DNA of 64,000 nt. Origin: an uncultured Lachnospiraceae bacterium (GTDB lineage Bacteria > Bacillota > Clostridia > Lachnospirales > Lachnospiraceae). The stretch's first letter is position 1. Every line of letters begins with the position of its first letter. This document shows, piece by piece, positions 361-30,388 of the stretch. The translations under genes and the position numbers were made by a program. The stretch lies in assembly GCA_947564735.1 (NCBI GenBank), contig CANOEC010000014.1:1-64000 (forward strand), written 5' to 3'. The notes below the pieces were generated by a model. That model ran no database searches, was not told where the DNA came from, and saw only the letters and a list, made by a program, of their open reading frames with translations.

Positions 361-1736
361 CTAACCTTTTACTGTTAATTGGCTTCCCTGTTTCATAAAG
401 TTAAAATGTATCTCCACTGTTGTATTGCGTCCGTCCTCCGTCATTTCCTCATGGACTACAATCTCCCTGATGAGCAGGTGCAGCATTTCCCTGTCAAGCT
501 CTTTAATGTCCGCATACTGCCTTATCAGTGACAGCCACTTAGAATTGTCCTCCTGCTCCTTTGCCGCCCCGTCAAGACGCTGGCGCATCATGTCCACCTT
601 TTTCTGTAATGTTTCCTGCTCTGCCTGCGCCTTTTCCATCATGCGGGTAAAATTTGCTTCGTTAATCCTGCCTGCAATCCAGTCTTCATAGAGTTTTGAT
701 ACAAGCGTGTCAAGTTCACTAAGGCGTTTTTCGCTTTCAGAAAGTTTTTCTTCCATGCGCCTGCGCTCGTCATCATTGTCACACTGGCAGCTTTTTCTTA
801 ATTCCTCCATGACTTTTGTTTCGTCTGCGAGGGCAAGCGCCGCACAGGTGCGTATCTGCTCCAGCACTATCTGATACAGCGTATCAAGTTCTAATCTGTG
901 CTGGCTGCAATGCGCCACTCCATAGCGGTTGTACTTTGCACAGGTCAGTATCCTTGTCTTTGCTTTCGCATTTGCCACACGCTGGTTCATGGAACTTCCG
1001 CATTCCCCACATTTGACAAGCCCTGCAAATATCCCATAATTGCCCCATGCGTCAGGTCTTTTCCGCATTTTCACTTTTTCCTGCACAAGATTGTAGGTGT
1101 CCTTATCGACAAGCGGCTCATGCACGTTCTCCACCTGTAACCATTCCTCCGGCTTCTTATCGCCAAGCCTGCGCCTAATCCAGTTCGTGCCATGCCCTTC
1201 GGCTGCCAAATTAAATATCTTTTTGACAATCCAAGCAGTGTCCTTATCCGGTATCAAAAAATTCTTGTCCTCCGGTGATTTCATGTAGCCGAACGGTGCA
1301 ACGCATCCGGTAAATTTCCCCTTTTTCGCCTTGATTACATAAGAGGAATGTACCTTTTTCCCAATGTCCTTTGAATAAATCTCATTGAAAACACTGCGGA
1401 ATGCGATAAGGTCATCATTTTTTCCCGTATCTACGCCGTCCGTCACGCCTATGTAGCGGATATGGTGCTTGGGAAAAATTCGTCCCTCTGCTTACAGTCC
1501 GCTAACATTCTCTGGAAGTCTGGTCTGTCCATATACAAGCCGGAATACCCGTCATCTGCATATACGCCTGCAACACTGAAACCATGTTCCTGACACCATG
1601 TTTCCAGCATATCACGCTGGTTCTGTATGCTTGCGCTTTCCCCATCAAGGTTGTCGTCTTTTGACAGCCTGCAATAGATAGCCACCCTCTGACTGCTGTG
1701 AAGCTGTTGTAATGCTGCAAAATTAGAATCCATCAT
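361..1736 (-). pseudogene. Large serine recombinase of the element, internal deletion and frameshift
   Basis: The N-terminal part (from the ATG at 1736, preceded by GGAGGT at a good distance) has the resolvase signature YCRLSKDD with the nucleophilic serine and DDGYSG. It then breaks near 1450-1480 and continues in another frame with FPKHHIRYIGVTDGVDTG, a recombinase domain, a zinc ribbon (CGECGSSM ... CAKYNRYGVAHCSQ), a coiled coil and a DUF4368-like tail. Roughly 35-40 residues expected between the halves are missing, including the conserved DLSRLGR-type segment that supplies catalytic arginines. The protein should be inactive. It lies at the left end of the element reading outwards, the normal place for the integrase of such elements. 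Confidence 0.85.
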
Positions 1737-1998
1737 ACTGACCTCCATTTTCCGCAAAACCAACAGTTGTACCGCCAACATCTGCTTCACTGTCTTTAGT
1801 ATAGCTTCTATATTGTGTTTTATCAATACTATGTTTTGATATGTCAATATCACTTGTTTCTTTATCCTCACCATTGATGCGGTACTTCCTTCGTATCAAC
1901 TGCATAAATGCATGCTGTCCGCTTTGTGTCCCATCAAAGACTGTCTTAACTGTAATAGCCGCTTTTGTATCGGTGCAATTACCTGTCATTTTATCCAT
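1723..1998 (-). CDS. Small protein of unknown function upstream of the recombinase
   Basis: The 91-residue product starts at the ATG at 1998, preceded by an AAAGGA ribosome site. It has a charged segment (LIRRKYR) and an acidic, hydrophilic C-terminus, with no membrane segment or recognised domain. Its end overlaps the start of the recombinase gene by 14 bases, which implies translational coupling. Small genes in this position in related elements often encode accessory proteins for integration or excision, but nothing in the sequence proves that here. Confidence 0.5.
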   Translation of the reverse strand: MDKMTGNCTDTKAAITVKTVFDGTQSGQHAFMQLIRRKYRINGEDKETSDIDISKHSIDKTQYRSYTKDSEADVGGTTVGFAENGGQYDGF

Positions 1999-2168
1999 AA
2001 TTATAATCCTTTCTATTTTCGTAATTGCCCTAACGCTGTATAAAGATACAGACTGATTGGCGATGCTGTATCCACAAGCTAAAATGCCGCAAAAAAGCAG
2101 GGAAACAAATCTGAAATTATCAGTTATTTCCCTGCTTGATAGCTGCAATATAAAATTTTTATTCCGTA

Positions 2169-3086
2169 TTACACTGTCTGAAGCCCTGCAAGCTGCTCAA
2201 CTTCCGCAATGCTAAGACCTGAATCCTCGGCAATCTCCTCGATTGTCATTTTCCCTCGTTTCAGCATTCTCAATGCAGTATTTCTCTTAGTTTCGTTTTC
2301 TGTTTCATTTTTTATTTTTCTTGCACTTGTTTCAATCAATGCTCCACTCATCATATCACCTACGCCTTTCTGCACATTCTTGTATTTCTCTGCAATCTCT
2401 TTAATTACATCGCCGGACAGCTCTATAATCGTCCTCTTGTCAAATGCCCCGATAACTCCCTGCTGTTCCAGTTCGTCAAGCCTTTCCAAGATAACCTGAT
2501 ACTCCGCTTTTAATTCTTCCAGCTTCTGCCCATTATTATTATACTCCGGAAAGCTGTTCTCATGTGAAAAAATATAAAAGGGAATCAGCATCAGCAGACG
2601 CTTTTCAAAAATATCATCAAGTGAATATTTCTGCACTTTCATAATCGGTATGTCATACTGCACCGTCCCGCCCGGTGTAACGATAACGTATTTCATTTTG
2701 TCCGGTGTCTTTTTGTAAGTCCGGAGATACAGAACCGCCGTATTGGGGAATGTCACTGTCAGCGTTTCTTCCGTAACTTCCCCTTCATCAAGCGCTATCT
2801 GTGCATCGTATTCAAAAAGCCTTATCGTCATCCTTCCGTCCGGCAGGCTGCTCTCGCACTCGATATGGTATTTCTTTGGTATTTTCCCGAAAACTGTAAA
2901 ATTGGTATCTGTAATGCGTTCCTTGTCCGCTTCGTCCTGCTGGTCTAAAAAATGCTCATTAGGAAAAAACTGTATTTCTTCCTCCCCTGTATATGTTTCT
3001 CCGAAAACCTCGTTAATTATAGGAATGACCAGTTTCCGGCAATCATTTAAGATTGTTCGGAACGCCCCATCATATATATTTGCCAT
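2169..3086 (-). CDS. Rpn-family PD-(D/E)XK nuclease / putative transposase protein
   Basis: This 305-residue protein resembles the Rpn (recombination-promoting nuclease, 'PD-(D/E)XK nuclease family transposase') proteins that are abundant in Lachnospiraceae. The N-terminal half carries the nuclease-type core with YHIECESS followed by MTIRLFEYD, where the family's acidic and ECxS residues fall. The C-terminal part is helical and charged and ends with a small helix-turn-helix-like segment (MTIEEIAEDSGLSIAEVEQL). Characterised Rpn proteins stimulate RecA-independent recombination and cleave DNA. It is a single gene within the element, with its own ribosome site and no obvious operon partner. Confidence 0.75.
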   Translation of the reverse strand: MANIYDGAFRTILNDCRKLVIPIINEVFGETYTGEEEIQFFPNEHFLDQQDEADKERITDTNFTVFGKIPKKYHIECESSLPDGRMTIRLFEYDAQIALDEGEVTEETLTVTFPNTAVLYLRTYKKTPDKMKYVIVTPGGTVQYDIPIMKVQKYSLDDIFEKRLLMLIPFYIFSHENSFPEYNNNGQKLEELKAEYQVILERLDELEQQGVIGAFDKRTIIELSGDVIKEIAEKYKNVQKGVGDMMSGALIETSARKIKNETENETKRNTALRMLKRGKMTIEEIAEDSGLSIAEVEQLAGLQTV

Positions 3087-3189
3087 GTGTGAATCCTTTC
3101 TGTATCTGTGATTTCATCATACCATTTTTTATGATAAATTCAAGGATTGTACGGCATTTCACAATCGTTTCACTTTGAAAACCATTTCC

Positions 3190-4005
3190 CTATCCCCTTA
3201 AAATGCCCGAAACGCTCTCCCTGTTTGCCCTGCCCCTGTCTGTCCGGTAATTTCTGCCCGAAAAGGCAACCGGAGTGCATCTCTCCATGATGCGGTCATA
3301 GATGCGCCCATGCTCCAAGTCTGCCGGATTCTGCAATTCCTGCAATGACAGGTTGGTAGTGATGATAAACGGTTTTCCGCTTTTATAACGCTCATCAATG
3401 ACAAGGTAGACTGTTTCCAGCACATACGGAGTATCCCTTTCCACTCCTAAATCGTCAATGATTAACAGCTTATATCGGTTCAGGCTTTGCAGGTACTCAT
3501 TCCTTTCGCCGCTGTATACCCCTCCGAGCGCATTTACCAGCTTCGGGAAACTTGTCATCAGGACAGGAATATTCCTGTCCATAAGCGCATTGGCAATACA
3601 GCCTGCAAGGAATGTCTTTCCGGTTCCCACATCTCCCCATAGCAATAATCCCTGCCCCTTTTTCTGAAATTCTTCAAAATGCTCCGCATAACGGTGTGCA
3701 TATCCGGCGCATGAGTGCGTTTCATCGCAGTTTATAAATGTGTAGCCGAAGAAAGTCTTGTCCTGCAGCCCTGCGCTTTTCAGCCTTGAAATGTCCTCCA
3801 GCGTTTCCCTATCCCTACGCTCTTTTTCTGCCTTTTCCAGTTCCTCCGCCGCACACCTGCAAAGGCAGCAGACAATGCGTTCTTCTCCCAAGAATGATAT
3901 TCTTTTCTGTTTCCTCGTGTGGCATTTTCCACAGACTAAAAGCCCTGTTTCAGCGTCTATGTAGTCATCAACCAACTTCATTCCCTCATCAGCGGCATTC
4001 CCCAT
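3190..4005 (-). CDS. DnaC/IstB-like ATP-binding replication protein
   Basis: This is an AAA+ ATPase of the DnaC helicase-loader type. It has an N-terminal zinc-binding segment (CGKCHTRKQ ... CCLCRC), Walker A GDVGTGKT, Walker B LLIIDDLG, a sensor segment FIITTNLS and an arginine-rich YDRIMERC box. It follows the replisome organizer gene, a pair typical of clostridial mobilizable elements. The start is uncertain. An ATG at 4040 overlaps the upstream stop (ATGA) and opens a frame (MIDAVVDEVLKK...) that would join this gene if the A6 run at 4005-4010 had one more base. The ATG at 4005 or 3981 is therefore the best intact start, possibly reached by reinitiation. Confidence 0.85.
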   Translation of the reverse strand: MGNAADEGMKLVDDYIDAETGLLVCGKCHTRKQKRISFLGEERIVCCLCRCAAEELEKAEKERRDRETLEDISRLKSAGLQDKTFFGYTFINCDETHSCAGYAHRYAEHFEEFQKKGQGLLLWGDVGTGKTFLAGCIANALMDRNIPVLMTSFPKLVNALGGVYSGERNEYLQSLNRYKLLIIDDLGVERDTPYVLETVYLVIDERYKSGKPFIITTNLSLQELQNPADLEHGRIYDRIMERCTPVAFSGRNYRTDRGRANRESVSGILRG

Positions 4006-23264: not shown

Positions 23265-23411
23265 CTATCCCAGCCCGATGCACTCAAAACAGAGATTGAC
23301 CGCTTTATTCAACACAACTGACACCTCGCCTCTGAGCGCTCCATACAAAACAAACCCGCAGGCAGTAAACAGCCCCGCAATCCTCGCAACCCTTTTTGCC
23401 CTACTGTCCAT
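23265..23411 (-). CDS. CD1871A-family CXXC membrane peptide
   Basis: The 48-residue peptide has one hydrophobic helix (IAGLFTACGFVLYGAL), then RGEVSVVLNKAVNLCFECIG, the CxxC signature of the family. Its ATG overlaps the end of tlpA by 11 bases, so the two are translationally coupled. In Clostridioides and relatives this peptide accompanies TlpA-like and 4Fe-4S proteins, as here. It is probably a thiol relay between the membrane Fe-S protein and the lipoprotein (inference). Confidence 0.75.
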   Translation of the reverse strand: MDSRAKRVARIAGLFTACGFVLYGALRGEVSVVLNKAVNLCFECIGLG

Positions 23412-24030
23412 CCAGATACTCCTCCACGAACTTCTTATATGCATCCACATCCGCACCAATCACGGGGTCGCCCACGATGTTACCGTCTTTGTCAATAAAT
23501 ATCGTGGTTGGCACGCCAATGACATCCTTCAGGATATCGGCAAAATCCGCATTTGCAATCATCTGTAAGAAATCCGCATCGGCGCTTTCCATAATTTCTA
23601 CCGCCAAGTCATGATGTTCCGTATCCTCGTCCCCTGCGATATCAATCACCAGTCCGACTATCTGCACGTTGTCGGGCATCTTACTCGCCCATTCTCCGAG
23701 TTCCGGCATCTCTCTGATACACGGACCGCAGAAGGTGCCCCAGATATTCAGCACGGTCAAGTCTTTCTCTGCAAAAATACTTTCAGTGACTGTGTTGCCT
23801 TCTAGGTCTTTTGCCGTGAAAGCAAGCGTTACCCCAGAACTATCCTCCTGCTCTGCCGCACTGCCTATATCTGTCTGGCTTCCTGTCGCCGCTTCCGTAT
23901 CCGTCCGGTTTGCCGTCGTCCCATTTGTATCCGTTTGATTGCCTGTCGTATCATTTGTTCCACCGCATCCTGCCATCGCAATCCCCGCGGCAAGAAGCAC
24001 GCTGCATAATTTCATCTGCACTCTTTTCAT
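23401..24030 (-). CDS. TlpA-type thiol-disulfide lipoprotein
   Basis: The 209-residue protein has a lipobox ending at Cys22 (AMAGCGG). A low-complexity linker of TDT repeats (about residues 25-60) is followed by a thioredoxin fold with the active site WGTFCGPC (Cys101, Cys104) and the cis-proline loop GVPTTIFID. It is anchored outside the membrane and reduces or exchanges disulfides. It heads the trio with the CXXC peptide and the Fe-S membrane protein. AAAAGGAT lies upstream of the start. Confidence 0.88.
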   Translation of the reverse strand: MKRVQMKLCSVLLAAGIAMAGCGGTNDTTGNQTDTNGTTANRTDTEAATGSQTDIGSAAEQEDSSGVTLAFTAKDLEGNTVTESIFAEKDLTVLNIWGTFCGPCIREMPELGEWASKMPDNVQIVGLVIDIAGDEDTEHHDLAVEIMESADADFLQMIANADFADILKDVIGVPTTIFIDKDGNIVGDPVIGADVDAYKKFVEEYLDGQ

Positions 24031-24035
24031 TTTGA

Positions 24036-24482
24036 TTATATCCTTTTCAATATGTCTTTTTTCTTTTCGTCATACTCTTCATTTGTAATAGCGCCCTTAT
24101 CACGTAATTGCAATAAGTATTCCAATTTTGCCAGTTCATCAAGCGCTGAATCATTACTTGCAGACGATGCCATATTTTCATCGTTTTCATGTAACTCTCT
24201 CGCCAGCTTATCCATTACGCTAAATACCTGTTTCGCATTCAGGCTAAAAGCGCGTCTCACATTTTTGTCATCAACAATACGGACATTTTTCATCAACTTA
24301 TTTTGCTGCAGTTTCCATCCGTCCGACTCCGCTAAAGTCGTCCAGAGCTCATCTCCCGTCAGCACAGTCGCATCAATATTATAGGGTAGTTCGCTTTCCA
24401 AAACAGCCCTAAACTCATCGCTTTTCTTTGAGTTCTCCGCTAATACTTTCAAAACCGCCTCATAATCTTTTCTTTTTCCCAT
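24036..24482 (-). CDS. SHOCT-domain protein, third gene of an unknown operon
   Basis: The 148-residue protein has an N-terminal mixed domain (about residues 5-95) and an acidic linker. The C-terminal SHOCT domain begins LDELAKLEYLLQLRDKGAIT and has EYDEKKKDIL, the short helical pair that often ends membrane- or oligomer-associated proteins. The start at 24482 lies 9 bases after the stop of the preceding gene. Its function is unknown. It belongs with the two genes upstream. Confidence 0.7.
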   Translation of the reverse strand: MGKRKDYEAVLKVLAENSKKSDEFRAVLESELPYNIDATVLTGDELWTTLAESDGWKLQQNKLMKNVRIVDDKNVRRAFSLNAKQVFSVMDKLARELHENDENMASSASNDSALDELAKLEYLLQLRDKGAITNEEYDEKKKDILKRI

Positions 24483-24490
24483 AATAAACC

Positions 24491-25534
24491 TCATTTCTGC
24501 ACACGCTTTTGATTCAATTGATTGAGTCTGTCATGAACCGCATTTACTCTATCCCTGACTGCATTCACCCTGTCGCTGACCGCATTCCTATTACATATCA
24601 CCCTATCGTTCATATCTCCTATCACAGCGTTTACTCTGGATTCGATGGGACTGACTGCGGATTCCCCTTCCAAAATCTGTTTATGGGACAACACATCGAC
24701 AACGGATTGTTCTAACTCAACAAACACGTCACCCATCGCAAAAGAAACACGGTCAGTTAAGCGGCAGGTATCCATTGCCTCATGAATGACTTTTTCCGAC
24801 ATATCCGGTTTCTCTGACTTAAGCGCATAAAAGTATTTTTCTATCAGACAGCACGCATATGCCAGAACTCCTATCTGCATATGATTCTGTGAAAACAAAT
24901 AGATTCTGCCGACCGATTCCTCTGGAAGCGCCAAAACCTGTTCACCGAATCTGACTGCATCAACCGATTCATCAAAATCAAAATTATTGTTTTCCATTGT
25001 CTCCCTGATTCTTCTCAATCGTCCGGCATCTTTCGCCGTCCTTTCATCCACTCTGGAAAAGATATCTATTACCCCTATCAGTGAACCGTTTCTATGAAAG
25101 ATACCATTCTGGATATCCGTAATCAGATTCTGGTAACTATCAACACTGCTTATTTTCTCATCCAGTTTTTTAGCCAGACGATAGGTAACTTGCTGCAGCT
25201 GGTTATGCAGGATACTCATATTTCTTACAGATGCGGTCAGCGACACAAGCATCGCATCAGACAGCGTTTTCTGCTGCACCAGCCGGGTCAGTACATGAAC
25301 GCAGTACATTGAAAGCTTGTCACGATTCATCTGCATTTCCTTGACCGTCGCACTGTTTTTCCGGGTAATCGTATACCAGATGCGTTGAAACCACTTCTGA
25401 TTTTTCATTGCCGCATATGCATTTTCACTTTCTTCTATCAACGCCCTCATGCCGGCAATCATTTTATCCGTTTCCGACAAATCCTGTGCTAGAAAAAAAT
25501 CGAAATCCTCGTTTGACACAATCTCATTTCCCAT
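24491..25534 (-). CDS. Unknown helical protein with C-terminal DRVNAV repeats
   Basis: The 347-residue mostly alpha-helical protein has no membrane helix or recognised catalytic motif. Its C-terminus (about residues 305-345) contains heptad-like repeats SDRVNAV, RDRVNAV and HDRLNQL, preceded by SRVNAVIGDMNDRV, likely a coiled coil for oligomerisation. It sits between a possible nuclease/membrane protein and a SHOCT protein with gaps of 8-9 bases, so the three are co-transcribed. I do not recognise the family. Confidence 0.7.
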   Translation of the reverse strand: MGNEIVSNEDFDFFLAQDLSETDKMIAGMRALIEESENAYAAMKNQKWFQRIWYTITRKNSATVKEMQMNRDKLSMYCVHVLTRLVQQKTLSDAMLVSLTASVRNMSILHNQLQQVTYRLAKKLDEKISSVDSYQNLITDIQNGIFHRNGSLIGVIDIFSRVDERTAKDAGRLRRIRETMENNNFDFDESVDAVRFGEQVLALPEESVGRIYLFSQNHMQIGVLAYACCLIEKYFYALKSEKPDMSEKVIHEAMDTCRLTDRVSFAMGDVFVELEQSVVDVLSHKQILEGESAVSPIESRVNAVIGDMNDRVICNRNAVSDRVNAVRDRVNAVHDRLNQLNQKRVQK

Positions 25535-25542
25535 ACCGTCAC

Positions 25543-26946
25543 CTAAATGCTTTCTAATAATTCTTCTAAATCCTGCTGGTTTTCTACACTCTGCCTCATA
25601 TTCCCGTCAATCTCGTCCATGTATAACATAAAGCGCCTTCCATTCTCTTCAAACTTCTGCTGACTCCTCTCCAAAGCGTCAACAAGCGTCATGTAAGTTG
25701 CCGAAATTTTATATTCATATCCGGCGTTACCAAGCGATACATAATATCCTCCTCCAAACACCTTATCTTTGATAACTCCCAGAACAGTCGTTGAAACAAG
25801 CGCACCTACCATGGCGCCTGCTACCGGTATGGGAATAATCATCTGCCCAGCCGCCGCACCGACTCCGCTGGCTGCAGCATTTACCGCTAACTCCGGTATA
25901 TTATAAAGAAAATCATCCACGCTGATATTTCTCTTTGCCAGTTGTATTGCCTGTGAGACCATCCCGATTGTCGTGGAAAGTAAACCTGCCGCAAGGGGAG
26001 CGGACATGCCGGCATGATTCGTCAATGCATAAATCCCTCCGCCTGTTACACCGCCCCTAACAACACCGATGCCCGTATTCTTAAATATATCCGCCCAGTC
26101 TTCTTTATCGAAATCACCCAGCATCTTTCCTTGGTGCAGTTTACCAAATACAGAGGTGCCAAAGGATAATACACCGTCAATGGCGGCTGAGATGCCTGCA
26201 GCAACGATTCCTTCCTTCAGCGAAGCCTTTGCCTGTTCCTGATACTTCTGCCGCTCTTCATGATCCACTTCATTTATCTCTTGTTCTTTGGCGCCAACTG
26301 TATGATCGACCGTGCCAAGCTGCACCTCATCATAATTCACTTGCGCCGGATGAACCACATCCTCGAATTGAACGTTATTTGCCCTTTCAAATTCCCTCAC
26401 CTTTGCTACAACCCTGCATGCAACATCACCATTTTCAGATTTTGAAAGCTTATTCAGCTCTTCGGGAGATAATTTTAGCCATTGTTGTATCTGCTCATAA
26501 TAATCCTGCGGTATATCATAACTTCCGCCTCTTGCCAGAAAGTCAGGATAATCTTTTAAATGTGCATTTATCGCATCCATAGACAAATTCTTCTGTACAA
26601 ATTTCGATTGAACCGGCATCCCATTTTTTAAATAATCCACCGAAGCAGTCCTGTCAACTCCCTCGAAGGTATGGGTTGCCTGCTGACCGACAATGAGATT
26701 GTCTGCATTCTCAAAGCCGACCTGCACATGCTCAGCTATCTCTCCATGTTTCGTGCCCTGTGAACCTAGAATATGTTCCGGATGTGCATAAAATTCCCTC
26801 ACCTGCTTCAATTCATTCAAGGCATTCTCAAGATTGACATCCTGCACTCTCAGATTATTCAATAGTTCATCCGCCCGCAACTGGTTTAAATGCCGGGATA
26901 CGTCGCCAATCCCCTGCATGGTGACATTTACCTTGTTATCCATCAT
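25543..26946 (-). CDS. Unknown protein: possible PD-(D/E)XK-like domain plus glycine-rich hydrophobic region
   Basis: In this 467-residue protein, residues about 60-130 read GSQGTKHGEIAEHVQ, then ASVDYLKNGMPVQSKF: a helix with glutamate, then D-x(n)-QxK, a spacing seen in PD-(D/E)XK nucleases. Residues about 235-390 are glycine/alanine-rich hydrophobic helices (AGISAAIDGVLSFG, GVVRGGVTGGGIYAL, ASGVGAAAGQMIIPIPVAGA), suggesting membrane insertion or glycine-zipper packing. The tail is helical and charged. It is the first gene of a three-gene operon of unknown function. The nuclease idea rests on motif spacing only. A defence or toxin role is possible but unproven. Confidence 0.65.
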   Translation of the reverse strand: MMDNKVNVTMQGIGDVSRHLNQLRADELLNNLRVQDVNLENALNELKQVREFYAHPEHILGSQGTKHGEIAEHVQVGFENADNLIVGQQATHTFEGVDRTASVDYLKNGMPVQSKFVQKNLSMDAINAHLKDYPDFLARGGSYDIPQDYYEQIQQWLKLSPEELNKLSKSENGDVACRVVAKVREFERANNVQFEDVVHPAQVNYDEVQLGTVDHTVGAKEQEINEVDHEERQKYQEQAKASLKEGIVAAGISAAIDGVLSFGTSVFGKLHQGKMLGDFDKEDWADIFKNTGIGVVRGGVTGGGIYALTNHAGMSAPLAAGLLSTTIGMVSQAIQLAKRNISVDDFLYNIPELAVNAAASGVGAAAGQMIIPIPVAGAMVGALVSTTVLGVIKDKVFGGGYYVSLGNAGYEYKISATYMTLVDALERSQQKFEENGRRFMLYMDEIDGNMRQSVENQQDLEELLESI

Positions 26947-27143: not shown

Positions 27144-27194
27144 TTGACATTAAGAGTACAATCTGTTATCTTATCATTAAGATTACAATCTGTA
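27144..27194 (+). promoter_or_regulatory. Promoter with overlapping BlaI-type operators
   Basis: TTGACA (27144-27149) and TATCTT (27167-27172) are 17 bases apart. TACAATCTGT lies inside the spacer (27157-27166), and TACAATCTGTA, a TACA-N3-TGTA dyad, lies just past the start site (27184-27194). Together they form a longer inverted repeat AAGAGTACA...TGTACTCTT. TACA/TGTA dyads are the known recognition core of BlaI/MecI repressors, encoded here downstream. Confidence 0.7.
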
Positions 27195-27251
27195 CTCTTA
27201 CTTTTACATATCAAAATCTACAGAAGCAAACTGCTCTGCCACAAAGGTAAC

Positions 27252-27341: not shown

Positions 27342-27368
27342 AAAAGCAGCACAGAAATGGAGGGAATC

Positions 27369-27743
27369 ATGCAGCAAATATCAGACTACGAACTGGAACT
27401 TATGAAGGTCATCTGGACAAACGGCGGGACTGCGCTCTACGCAGAGATTGTCTCTGCATTATCCGCAAAGGGCATGGACTGGACGAAGAATACCGTCATT
27501 ACCCTGCTCTCCCGGCTGATTGACAAAGGGCTTCTTAAAACAAACAAAATCGGACACCGCAACAAATATACCGCTATCGTGTCAGAAGGCGAATACCAGT
27601 CATCCCAGACCGAAACCTTTCTCCACAAAGTCTATGAGGGCAATGCCAAGGGGCTCGTCTCCGCGCTGATTCAAAAAGACCTGCTGTCCGCCGCAGACTA
27701 TGAAGATTTAAAAGCATACTGGGAATCGAGGACTTCACGATGA
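27369..27743 (+). CDS. BlaI/MecI/CopY-family repressor
   Basis: The 124-residue winged-helix repressor has YELELMKVIWTNGGTALYAE, the recognition helix region WTKNTVITLLSRLIDKGLLK and a C-terminal dimerisation domain. The ATG at 27369 is chosen because GGAGGG precedes it; the ATG at 27357 overlaps that site. It overlaps the BlaR1-like gene by four bases (ATGA). Family members bind TACA/TGTA dyads and are cleaved after their BlaR1 partner senses a signal. Matching dyads lie in the operon's promoter. Confidence 0.9.
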   Translation: MQQISDYELELMKVIWTNGGTALYAEIVSALSAKGMDWTKNTVITLLSRLIDKGLLKTNKIGHRNKYTAIVSEGEYQSSQTETFLHKVYEGNAKGLVSALIQKDLLSAADYEDLKAYWESRTSR

Positions 27744-30388
27744 ATGAATTACTGAAAATAATCTTATCCCTGTCATTGTCGGGAACCATACTGATTCTGT
27801 CCCTGTTCCTGCTCAGACCGATCTATCAGAGCAGGCTGAGCAAACGCTGGCAGTACTATATCTGGCTCTTGGTCATCCTGCGCCTGCTTCTGCCCTTTAC
27901 GCCAGAAACAAGCGTTGTCGGGAATCTTTTTGGGCAGATAGAACAGCGAATCGAACAAGATACCGCTACCTCCCCGGTCACCGCTACAGTGGACATGGAA
28001 TCTCCCGCCCCTCTTCGGACAGGACACGATACCACAGTGGACGGCACACCTAATACCATCACCTCCGATGCCGTTCCGGATGCCGGCACTGACAATGATG
28101 CGCCAGCCGCCAAAACCCCGCCTGCCGGAAACCGGGCTGTTCAACTGCCGGGAAACCTGCCTTCTACACTTGGTATTCTCTGGCTTGTTATCGCCCTGCT
28201 CTTGTTTGTCCGCAAGATAACCATCTACCAGAGCTTTGTAAAATATGTCAAAGCTGGCGGCGCTCCCGTCGAAGACATGGATTTGCTGGAACGTTTCGGA
28301 CGGATACTTGCTAAGAACCATGTACATGCCGCCATCGACCTTCGCGCCAACAGCCTTGTCTCTTCGCCGCTGCTAATGGGATTCTTCCATGCCTGTATCG
28401 TTCTGCCGACTACAGAATTATCGGATGATGATTTCTATTACACGGCACTGCACGAACTGACACATTACAAGCGAAAGGATATGTTCTACAAATGGCTTGT
28501 GCAGCTTACCATCTGTCTGCATTGGTTTAATCCTTTTGTCTATCTCATGGGACGGGAGATAAACCGCCTCTGCGAACTCTCCTGTGACGAGAGAGTTATT
28601 TCAACTTTTACTGAAAAATCACGTAAATCTTACGGGGATACTCTCCTGCACGCAATCAGTGAGGGCGGCTCCTACAAAGATGCTCTCGCTTCTATCACTT
28701 TACATGAGAGCAAAGAATTATTGAAAGGCAGGTTAGATGCAATTATGAAATACCAGAAAATCCCAAAACTCATACAGACCGCCGGTATCTTCCTCACTGG
28801 CATACTAATCGGCGGCGCAGTCGTTCTTGGCGCATATGCCGCGCCAAAAAAGGACGGCACAGATTCAGCCGGCGCTTCTGTGCACAATCCAATTAATTAT
28901 GATTCCCTTCCGGACTATACCATACAATATGAAGACGGCACCTATTATATTATGGTCGATGACGCCACGGAATTTGACAAACCCATATCCAACGTTACCG
29001 AAGGTTATAAACATCTCGTTTTAGTCCGTAAGGGCTATTACGCCACATTTGGAACCTTTGACGACCATGACATGACCTCCCTTGCCCGACATATCAAAGA
29101 GCAATGCAGAACACGGCTTAATAACAATGAGCTTACACAGGAAAATGCAGATATCGTCATGCATGCTGCTGAAAAAATCCAGGCTTACTATTGTTCATTA
29201 GAAGAAAGCGGAACCTCTCTATACAGATATACACAGTCCGGCTATTGCCAGTACCCTTACTTAATCTGGATTGGATATAATCTATCCTCCGACGCCCAGA
29301 CCGGCTACGACAGTACGCTGCTTACCCTGCCAGACCAGAGCACAATGCGTATCTGGTTCAATCAGGATGCCGAGGCATATCTGTCCGACCCAGACGCTCT
29401 TTCGGCTGTGGCTGCCCTCGCCGGACGCATCCAGACAAAGAAAGCGGATTCTTCTATTCCATTTGAAGCGCCGATTATCACACAAATAGAATATATCGGT
29501 GATACCGACTTAAATACATTGGCACAGGACTATTACTCCGAAGACAATCTGACCTATTTCATTGCCGTCTTCCCGGAACTGGACAGCCAGACACAGCAGG
29601 ACTATCTCGACCGCATGTATGAAGATGACAACATCTCATTCTTCGCCGCCTGCATTGATATACCGGAGGATGCACAGTTACGAAAAGAACTTACCGACCG
29701 TTATATGCTGAAAGCATATGAAGAAGATAACATCAGCTTTTTCTCTGTTTTATCTTCCATAATGCTTGACGATACGTCGCGGACAAAATGGAAAGAACGA
29801 TGCAGGAAAGACGGTAAATCCAACTTCTATGCCATGCTCAATGACTATGAGACCCCCATTGACGAAGAATTTTCAAACGAGACTATTCTCAATGAAGATT
29901 TCGTTGATACTGATTTCACTGACTGGAATTTCCCGGATAAGAATTTCACTGATGATGGTTTCTTGGATGAATGGTTCCAGAATCCTACAAACAAACAGCA
30001 GGATACCACTAACATCATAGACCTGAACCGCCTGTTAAAAAAGGAAATCCCTAACGACCTGCAAACGTTTCTGGATACCTGTGACAATCGGAAGTGGTAT
30101 TTGATTGACGACGGCAACGGACTGCAATATATCTACTACAACGGACTGCCGCATACCTATACCTACGAACCGAACCTCATACAAAAGGGGGAGAAGAATC
30201 TGATTTCCATCGACATTTTTAACGCTGAATTATTGAACTCTCCCCGCGACCGGGACACCGACGAATCACTAGACAATTATGTATTGCTGGCATTCTCATA
30301 CGTTTCTGATAAGTCAGAAAATGGATACAGCCTTGAAATCACGTATAACGGCTACCCTGTCACTTATGAAATTGTACAGTGCAGATAG
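27740..30388 (+). CDS. BlaR1-type M56 metallopeptidase sensor with atypical C-terminal domain
   Basis: The 882-residue protein has an N-terminal membrane part with the M56 zinc motif HELTHYKRKD, the LSCDERV segment with the third ligand region, and a further membrane helix at about residue 350 (IFLTGILIGGAVVLGAYA). A Thr/Pro/Asp-rich loop lies between the first helices. The extracellular C-terminal half is not a penicillin-binding domain. It contains repeated acidic segments (YEDDNISFFAAC, YEEDNISFFSVL) and a run of NEDFVDTDFTDWNFPDKNF-type motifs. The sensed signal is therefore unlikely to be a beta-lactam. Pairing with BlaI and the operator sites suggests a signal-induced proteolytic switch. 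Confidence 0.85.
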   Translation: MNELLKIILSLSLSGTILILSLFLLRPIYQSRLSKRWQYYIWLLVILRLLLPFTPETSVVGNLFGQIEQRIEQDTATSPVTATVDMESPAPLRTGHDTTVDGTPNTITSDAVPDAGTDNDAPAAKTPPAGNRAVQLPGNLPSTLGILWLVIALLLFVRKITIYQSFVKYVKAGGAPVEDMDLLERFGRILAKNHVHAAIDLRANSLVSSPLLMGFFHACIVLPTTELSDDDFYYTALHELTHYKRKDMFYKWLVQLTICLHWFNPFVYLMGREINRLCELSCDERVISTFTEKSRKSYGDTLLHAISEGGSYKDALASITLHESKELLKGRLDAIMKYQKIPKLIQTAGIFLTGILIGGAVVLGAYAAPKKDGTDSAGASVHNPINYDSLPDYTIQYEDGTYYIMVDDATEFDKPISNVTEGYKHLVLVRKGYYATFGTFDDHDMTSLARHIKEQCRTRLNNNELTQENADIVMHAAEKIQAYYCSLEESGTSLYRYTQSGYCQYPYLIWIGYNLSSDAQTGYDSTLLTLPDQSTMRIWFNQDAEAYLSDPDALSAVAALAGRIQTKKADSSIPFEAPIITQIEYIGDTDLNTLAQDYYSEDNLTYFIAVFPELDSQTQQDYLDRMYEDDNISFFAACIDIPEDAQLRKELTDRYMLKAYEEDNISFFSVLSSIMLDDTSRTKWKERCRKDGKSNFYAMLNDYETPIDEEFSNETILNEDFVDTDFTDWNFPDKNFTDDGFLDEWFQNPTNKQQDTTNIIDLNRLLKKEIPNDLQTFLDTCDNRKWYLIDDGNGLQYIYYNGLPHTYTYEPNLIQKGEKNLISIDIFNAELLNSPRDRDTDESLDNYVLLAFSYVSDKSENGYSLEITYNGYPVTYEIVQCR

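Follow-up and report, generated by a model that had tools for sequence, protein, structure and literature searches.

Organization of the three-gene locus

The stretch of DNA analysed here (hereafter the window; 64,000 nucleotides from an uncultured Lachnospiraceae bacterium) carries three intact open reading frames on the minus strand, which the ORF listing places in the transcription order P1 (25543-26946, 467 aa), P2 (24491-25534, 347 aa) and P3 (24036-24494, 152 aa). These are the same frames that an earlier note, made from the letters alone, had described as one unit with gaps of 8-9 bases. The spacing between P1 and P2 is indeed 8 bases, whereas the stop of P2 and the start of P3 share a 4-base overlap (ATGA). 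A redoxin-like gene (23401-24030) lies 5 bases beyond P3, and a simple scan detected no terminator-like site 3' of P3; because of this 5-base gap, the operon transcript may extend past P3 into the redoxin-like gene. The segment 22311-24030, downstream of P3 and on its strand, holds this gene, encoding a redoxin-like lipoprotein, together with a gene for a 4Fe-4S membrane protein.

On the other side, BlaI/BlaR-type genes (27357-30388) are divergent from P1. The interval between them and P1 holds two direct repeats of 27 bases (27148-27200) that carry TACAATCTGTA-like sites; these may be operators of the BlaI/BlaR-type repressor and could touch the P1 promoter region too. Pfam scans of seven flanking genes in the window revealed no defence, integrase or plasmid gene. 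In the host genome (4.5 Mb, 102 contigs), P1 and P3 are each single-copy.

P1 belongs to the PDC-M09B family

P1 matches the PADLOC model PDC-M09B (PDLC04409, 9.3e-117) over residues 2-395, and three PDC-M09B models of PADLOC-DB match it (9e-117 to 8e-67), so the operon is not the unrecognised one that the earlier note took it for. We refer below to PDC-M09B proteins as B and to their usual partner, PDC-M09A, as A. An excerpt of PMC11811056 calls the PDC systems of PADLOC unpublished candidates and traces them to Payne et al. 2021. A full-text search of accessible main texts returned neither an occurrence of "PDC-M09" nor a published mechanism for the family. Nothing in Pfam or NCBIfam matched P1 over the curated cut-off, and the best PHROG match was 0.025. 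Across 77 relatives of P1, Pfam gave weak matches only, the commonest being DUF3482 (12/77, best 1.7e-4). The best PDB match to the P1 family (E 0.043) fell on hydrophobic or helical segments of toxin chains and was judged to be due to chance. The glycine-rich hydrophobic region noticed earlier in P1 is there: hydropathy of the family mean and of the window sequence places it at about residues 240-390 (25777-26229, minus strand), with a hydrophobic stretch over about residues 354-389 and a Kyte-Doolittle maximum of 1.86 inside residues 366-385.

The distribution of B is patchy. Counting the window's own genome, B was found in 5/299 genomes of the family and 9/391 of the class, being near full length in just four of those nine; a same-genus genome (G060) is without a B relative. 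No clean empty site was found in the latter: its matches are limited to pieces of MntP and BlaI/BlaR, spread over two contigs, and on the BlaI side only about 1.5 kb is left before the contig end. B occurs in 60 plasmid records, 46 of them from Klebsiella, and most of an A-B pair is present in 5 of the 5426 complete E. coli genomes. A scan of a species-level genome collection, selected on the pattern [TS]KHGEIAE, yielded 110 B relatives, of which 80 were retained; these come from Bacillota, Bacteroidota, Cyanobacteriota, Pseudomonadota and other phyla, and some relatives lie on long, apparently chromosomal contigs in several phyla. Four records were collected twice (L020, L021, L023 and L024 are the same as L034, L048, L033 and L096). 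Scans of genome-contig and viral-contig collections with the single P1 sequence gave no match; the B alignment found seven matches in the viral contigs, four of them near full length. For the large B alignment, 77 of 84 extracted proteins were used, the seven left out being cyanobacterial (six close to kept rows, plus L091).

Two variant arrangements were seen among B loci. Three Enterobacter-type loci (L063, L070, L111) have a second ORF of about 840 aa matching the B profile directly after B. The Rhodococcus plasmid pDF03 (L206, 3345-4726) carries a 246-aa B relative after a gene annotated as TnsA-like, and this relative has neither the D283-W284 region nor the bulk of the membrane part.

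A conserved nuclease-like site in P1

The motifs GEIAE, VDY and QSK, in which the earlier note had seen a spacing compatible with a PD-(D/E)XK nuclease, are present in P1, and their conservation goes beyond chance. They contain a putative active site, E72 ... D104 ... Q113-S-K115 (26602-26733, minus strand), all four residues of which are invariant in 18/18 B proteins, namely that of the window and 17 relatives found without the motif by tblastn, HMM or DNA similarity. These proteins span Clostridia, Bacilli, Actinomycetota, Cyanobacteriota and Enterobacterales; G68, A71, N80 and P146 are likewise invariant in all 18. The same four putative catalytic residues are invariant in 77/77 rows of the large alignment, where the count for E72 is biased by the [TS]KHGEIAE search pattern and those for D104, Q113 and K115 are free of this bias. 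We take the E/D/QxK spacing to fit the site of Mrr-type PD-(D/E)XK enzymes. Profile comparison of the P1 N-domain with Mrr_cat (13 sequences), NERD (6) and UPF0102 (18) detected no similarity, the hhalign probabilities being below 1%; of the three control pairs, two scored 73% (Mrr-UPF0102) and 65% (NERD-UPF0102), and the third was weak as well at 5.6% (Mrr-NERD). Chou-Fasman averages over the B alignment gave a weak signal that allows no judgement on the core. Given the invariance of E72, D104 and QxK115 in 18/18 proteins, the N-domain of P1 is likely a PD-(D/E)XK-like nuclease.

Joint exchange of the partner and the C-terminal tail of B

In other genomes, B is accompanied by A, a glycine-rich membrane protein that matched PADLOC PDC-M09A in both members scanned and has a long conserved glycine-rich hydrophobic core in five sequences. 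A lies upstream of B in 78 of the 80 fetched loci: directly upstream in 74 (gaps of -20 to 187 bases), fused to B in one, recovered by six-frame search in two where antisense ORFs had at first hidden it, and present as an end at the contig edge in one. A is missing from L031 (Eubacterium plexicaudatum) and from L091 (Nostoc). In 14/80 loci, the gene after B is of the DUF697 type (own profile; Pfam for two). A GTPase as a general partner of B was considered and rejected, as a gene with a G1 motif lies within 3 kb of B only in L031 (1/80). The window thus resembles PDC-M09 (A + B) in that P1 is a B homologue, and differs from it in lacking A, in having P2 downstream of P1 and in its non-canonical P1 tail; an A-profile search of the whole window in six frames found nothing at E <= 1e-3. 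P2 itself was discarded as an A relative (0.5% probability).

A P2 homologue is found directly after B in three other records: L031, G068 (L019) and MT838879 (L018), the last being a 4.8-kb metagenomic record labelled as bacteriophage. The P1-P2 sample therefore consists of four records from two lineages. The L018 match to P2 is weak (1.2e-6 over about 90 residues), and that record has only 84 bases before B, too short to show A.

The exchange of partner goes along with a difference in the tail of B. We built a canonical tail profile in five folds from A-partnered B proteins, taking the final 95 residues of each, with a cut-off of E < 1e-3. It recognised 73/75 held-out A-partnered tails, and the two exceptions (L065, L077) are shortened, having 413 and 421 aa. 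All ten further A-partnered B proteins outside the training set were recognised as well (L016, L017, L021, L025, L118, L119, L202-L205), and in each of them the A profile matches the adjoining gene or fused part; the seven left-out cyanobacterial tails and the fused L048 (the same record as L021), which is outside the length limit, also matched. In contrast, 0/4 of the P2-partnered B proteins have the canonical tail (E 0.22-8.2), P1 of the window giving E 0.74-2.7, over the cut-off. Its variant tail (residues 392-467; 25546-25773, minus strand) is common to the L031 and G068 homologues, and a search of 2049 locus ORFs with a profile built from these three gave no further match below E 0.15. 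In a maximum-likelihood tree of 82 B proteins, the window, L031 and G068 form one clade (support 100/100), while L018 sits at a distance from it on a long branch; placing the P2 label on this tree needs two changes, and two are forced by the starred branches. Since in each of two unrelated lineages a different partner goes with a different tail, we infer that the tail of B docks its partner protein. Alternatively, an A-docking tail may simply have been lost after A was gone, a view mildly opposed by L091, which is without A yet keeps the canonical tail. The concerted change in both partner and tail indicates a possible control site of the B effector.

P2 is a module with changing C-termini

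The shared part of P2 is its helical module, about the first 280 residues (24695-25534, minus strand); in L018 only the first ~120 are shared. Elsewhere this module stands N-terminal to GTPase, Sel1 or repeat-rich C-termini. The C-terminus is a GTPase domain in the G068 homologue (PF01926, 1.9e-10) and in that of L031 (own GTPase profile, 3.1e-10; degenerate by eye), and two further GTPase genes follow in both records. At the place where these two nearest relatives have the GTPase domain, P2 of the window carries the DRVNAV heptads that the earlier note had pointed out (24494-24664, minus strand), encoded by a 21-base tandem repeat (24537-24587) at the end of the gene. The L018 homologue ends in a repeat-rich part, beta-helix-like by eye and without a Pfam match. 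That of G253, which is preceded by a different putative membrane protein, ends in Sel1 repeats (PF08238, 1.4e-60), and G741, G759 and G795 have tandem P2-module genes with Sel1 repeats recognised by eye. B adjoins the module in four of these eight records and not in G253, G741, G759 and G795; no B was seen in the fetched regions of the last three. P2 is hence not tied to B, and offers a named module that would link one effector to GTPase and repeat-type proteins.

P2 is also rare, the module being found in 3/299, 2/391 and 4/334 genomes with the window's own in each count. No P2 was detected in viral contigs (P2 alignment scan) or in plasmids (window P2 as query), and the L031 module was found in no phage or plasmid either, though MT838879 turned up through B. 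Two candidates did not hold up. A weak P2 match in G348 (8.7e-5) falls on the N-terminal part of a protein from the dynamin family (PF00350, 1e-18). A 382-aa protein of G253 (L030), tried as a B homologue, scored 22.8%, which does not establish homology, and its C-terminus aligns with the P1 tail only at E 0.81.

Several neighbourhoods of P2-like genes were recorded. The tandem P2-Sel1 genes of G741 and G759 (L221, 3416-11356; L222, 7064-16161) lie near Hsp70-like and metallo-beta-lactamase-like genes, both recognised by eye. The B-P2-GTPase cluster of G068 (L019, 34-7013; L210) is preceded, immediately upstream and in the same orientation, by a phage-baseplate-like cluster (PF04717, 1.1e-7) that includes an Hsp70-like gene (by eye); PF04717 had no match in the window's genome. 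Upstream of the A-B-DUF697 cluster in L054 lie two genes (1212-3889), one patatin-like by eye and the other encoding 553 aa that weakly resemble the P2 module (E 0.02).

P3 combines a SHOCT domain with a domain of LRAT and patatin proteins

P3 ends in a SHOCT domain, as had been proposed (24048-24110, minus strand; PF09851, 7.8e-7), scoring 29.1 bits against a gathering cut-off of 27. It differs from other SHOCT proteins in its N-terminal domain (residues 16-100; 24195-24449, minus strand), otherwise seen here on two LRAT-type proteins (G035, G112) and at the C-terminus of a patatin-like phospholipase (G039). Pfam identifies LRAT in G035 and patatin in G039, and G112 was named by similarity to G035. 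In a 150-genome sample, P3 matches came from five genomes: besides the window's own and those of the three proteins just named, there was one that matched at the SHOCT end only. An N-domain shared with lipases suggests that P3 may be an effector-linked adaptor. P3 was found in no plasmid and next to P1 in no other fetched locus. Co-occurrence of all three families is thus not supported, with P1-P2 recurring in three other records and P3 beside P1 in no other fetched locus. The mixture of parts on which the earlier note based its comparison with defence systems is otherwise in place, comprising the nuclease-like residues, the membrane-type region and SHOCT, and a link to a defence-candidate family was found.

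Genomic settings of B

In one E. coli strain, B lies between integrases, in an island that also holds a toxin-antitoxin pair, and on a Klebsiella plasmid it is a few kilobases from a McrC-type gene and insertion sequences. On the Lactococcus plasmid pSD96_06 (L118, 3798-11463), a dynamin-family gene stands on either side of the A-B pair, and these two genes closely resemble each other; further B-bearing plasmids come from Niallia, Rhodococcus and Curtobacterium. Such settings favour a conflict role for B. Among the top 25 families listed, PADLOC matches were not visibly more frequent in the genes sampled around A-B loci than in controls, WYL regulators apart. This comparison set 140/369 eligible neighbour ORFs against 140/172 control ORFs from Clostridia, not phylum-matched, with Pfam run on the same sets; the neighbour ORFs were called mechanically, at least one being antisense to A, and the controls happened to contain Cas1 and AbiE genes. 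A WYL-type regulator is found within 2.5 kb upstream in 6/80 loci, three of which are the profile's own seeds.

Possible mechanism and alternative explanations

The match of P1 to PDC-M09B, the missing A, the recurrent P1-P2 adjacency and the tail difference together suggest that the window holds a rare derivative of PDC-M09A/B, a candidate defence pair, in which the partner has been swapped, with P1 as a membrane-associated, nuclease-like effector gated via its tail; we give this reading an even chance. P1 would most likely act as a membrane-associated effector through the PD-(D/E)XK-like active site of its N-domain. In ordinary relatives, the C-terminal tail of B most likely binds the membrane protein A, and in the window the new tail most likely binds P2 instead. 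P2 would then be an adaptor, and by way of the GTPase, Sel1 or repeat ends of its relatives, effectors could be connected to various inputs. An accessory adaptor is the most likely role of P3, which would use SHOCT for oligomerisation alongside its LRAT/patatin-associated domain. The trigger would be a phage signal or damage to the membrane; sensed via P2/P3, it would set P1 free to cut nucleic acid at the membrane, so that the cell is killed or arrested. This sequence of sensing by P2/P3, tail gating of P1 and nucleic-acid damage at the membrane is the best-fitting mechanism, with prospects that we regard as roughly balanced. More tentatively, and with somewhat less than an even chance of being right, PDC-M09B may be a modular effector with a tail that serves as a socket specific to its partner. 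Two or more exchanges of this tail would have allowed it to dock P2, a general input device that in other proteins ends in GTPase, Sel1 or solenoid-like parts; the operon would then stand for a new class of membrane-nuclease immunity, one that is GTPase-related yet has no GTPase of its own.

P1 might instead damage the membrane itself, its N-domain being another enzyme or a binding domain and A or P2 gating pore formation. The long glycine-rich core of A, the hydrophobic stretch of P1 and the negative nuclease profile tests all agree with this, but a pore alone has no obvious need for E72, D104, Q113 and K115 to be invariant in 18/18 proteins, and we consider a pore-forming P1 rather unlikely. 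The role of the family could also lie in serving mobile elements, by stabilisation or by exclusion of competing plasmids, rather than in phage defence. Its many plasmid copies, from Klebsiella to Lactococcus, Niallia, Rhodococcus and Curtobacterium, the E. coli copy between integrases and a recombinase-like ORF (by eye) at the end of MT838879 are what one would expect of such a role; the chromosomal-type contigs of several phyla and the seven flanking window genes, none of them a plasmid gene, speak against it, and it seems improbable to us.

The remaining alternative concerns the window only, where the operon could be a decaying copy whose P2 has lost its GTPase domain and whose P3 is an unrelated neighbour. 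Decay would account for the contrast with L031 and G068, whose P2 homologues have GTPase domains and are followed by two GTPase genes, especially as the L031 domain is already degenerate by eye, and for a P3 that adjoins P1 nowhere else. Against it stand the three intact frames, the ATGA overlap of P2 and P3, the four putative catalytic residues retained in P1 and the Sel1-type P2 proteins, in which the module occurs without a GTPase domain; we regard decay as doubtful at best.

According to an excerpt of PMC8195603, bacterial conflict systems contain GTPase switches and chaperone pairs that set thresholds. Pfam scans found no GTPase domain in P1-P3, which sets the window apart from the dynamin/AIG-like GTPase systems LeoA/LeoBC and Eleos. 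The likeness to these systems lies in the two nearest relatives of P2, where the GTPases, both those fused to them and those encoded next, match dynamin, AIG1 and septin weakly, and in PDC-M09A, which gives a weak match to LeoBC (2.6e-6).
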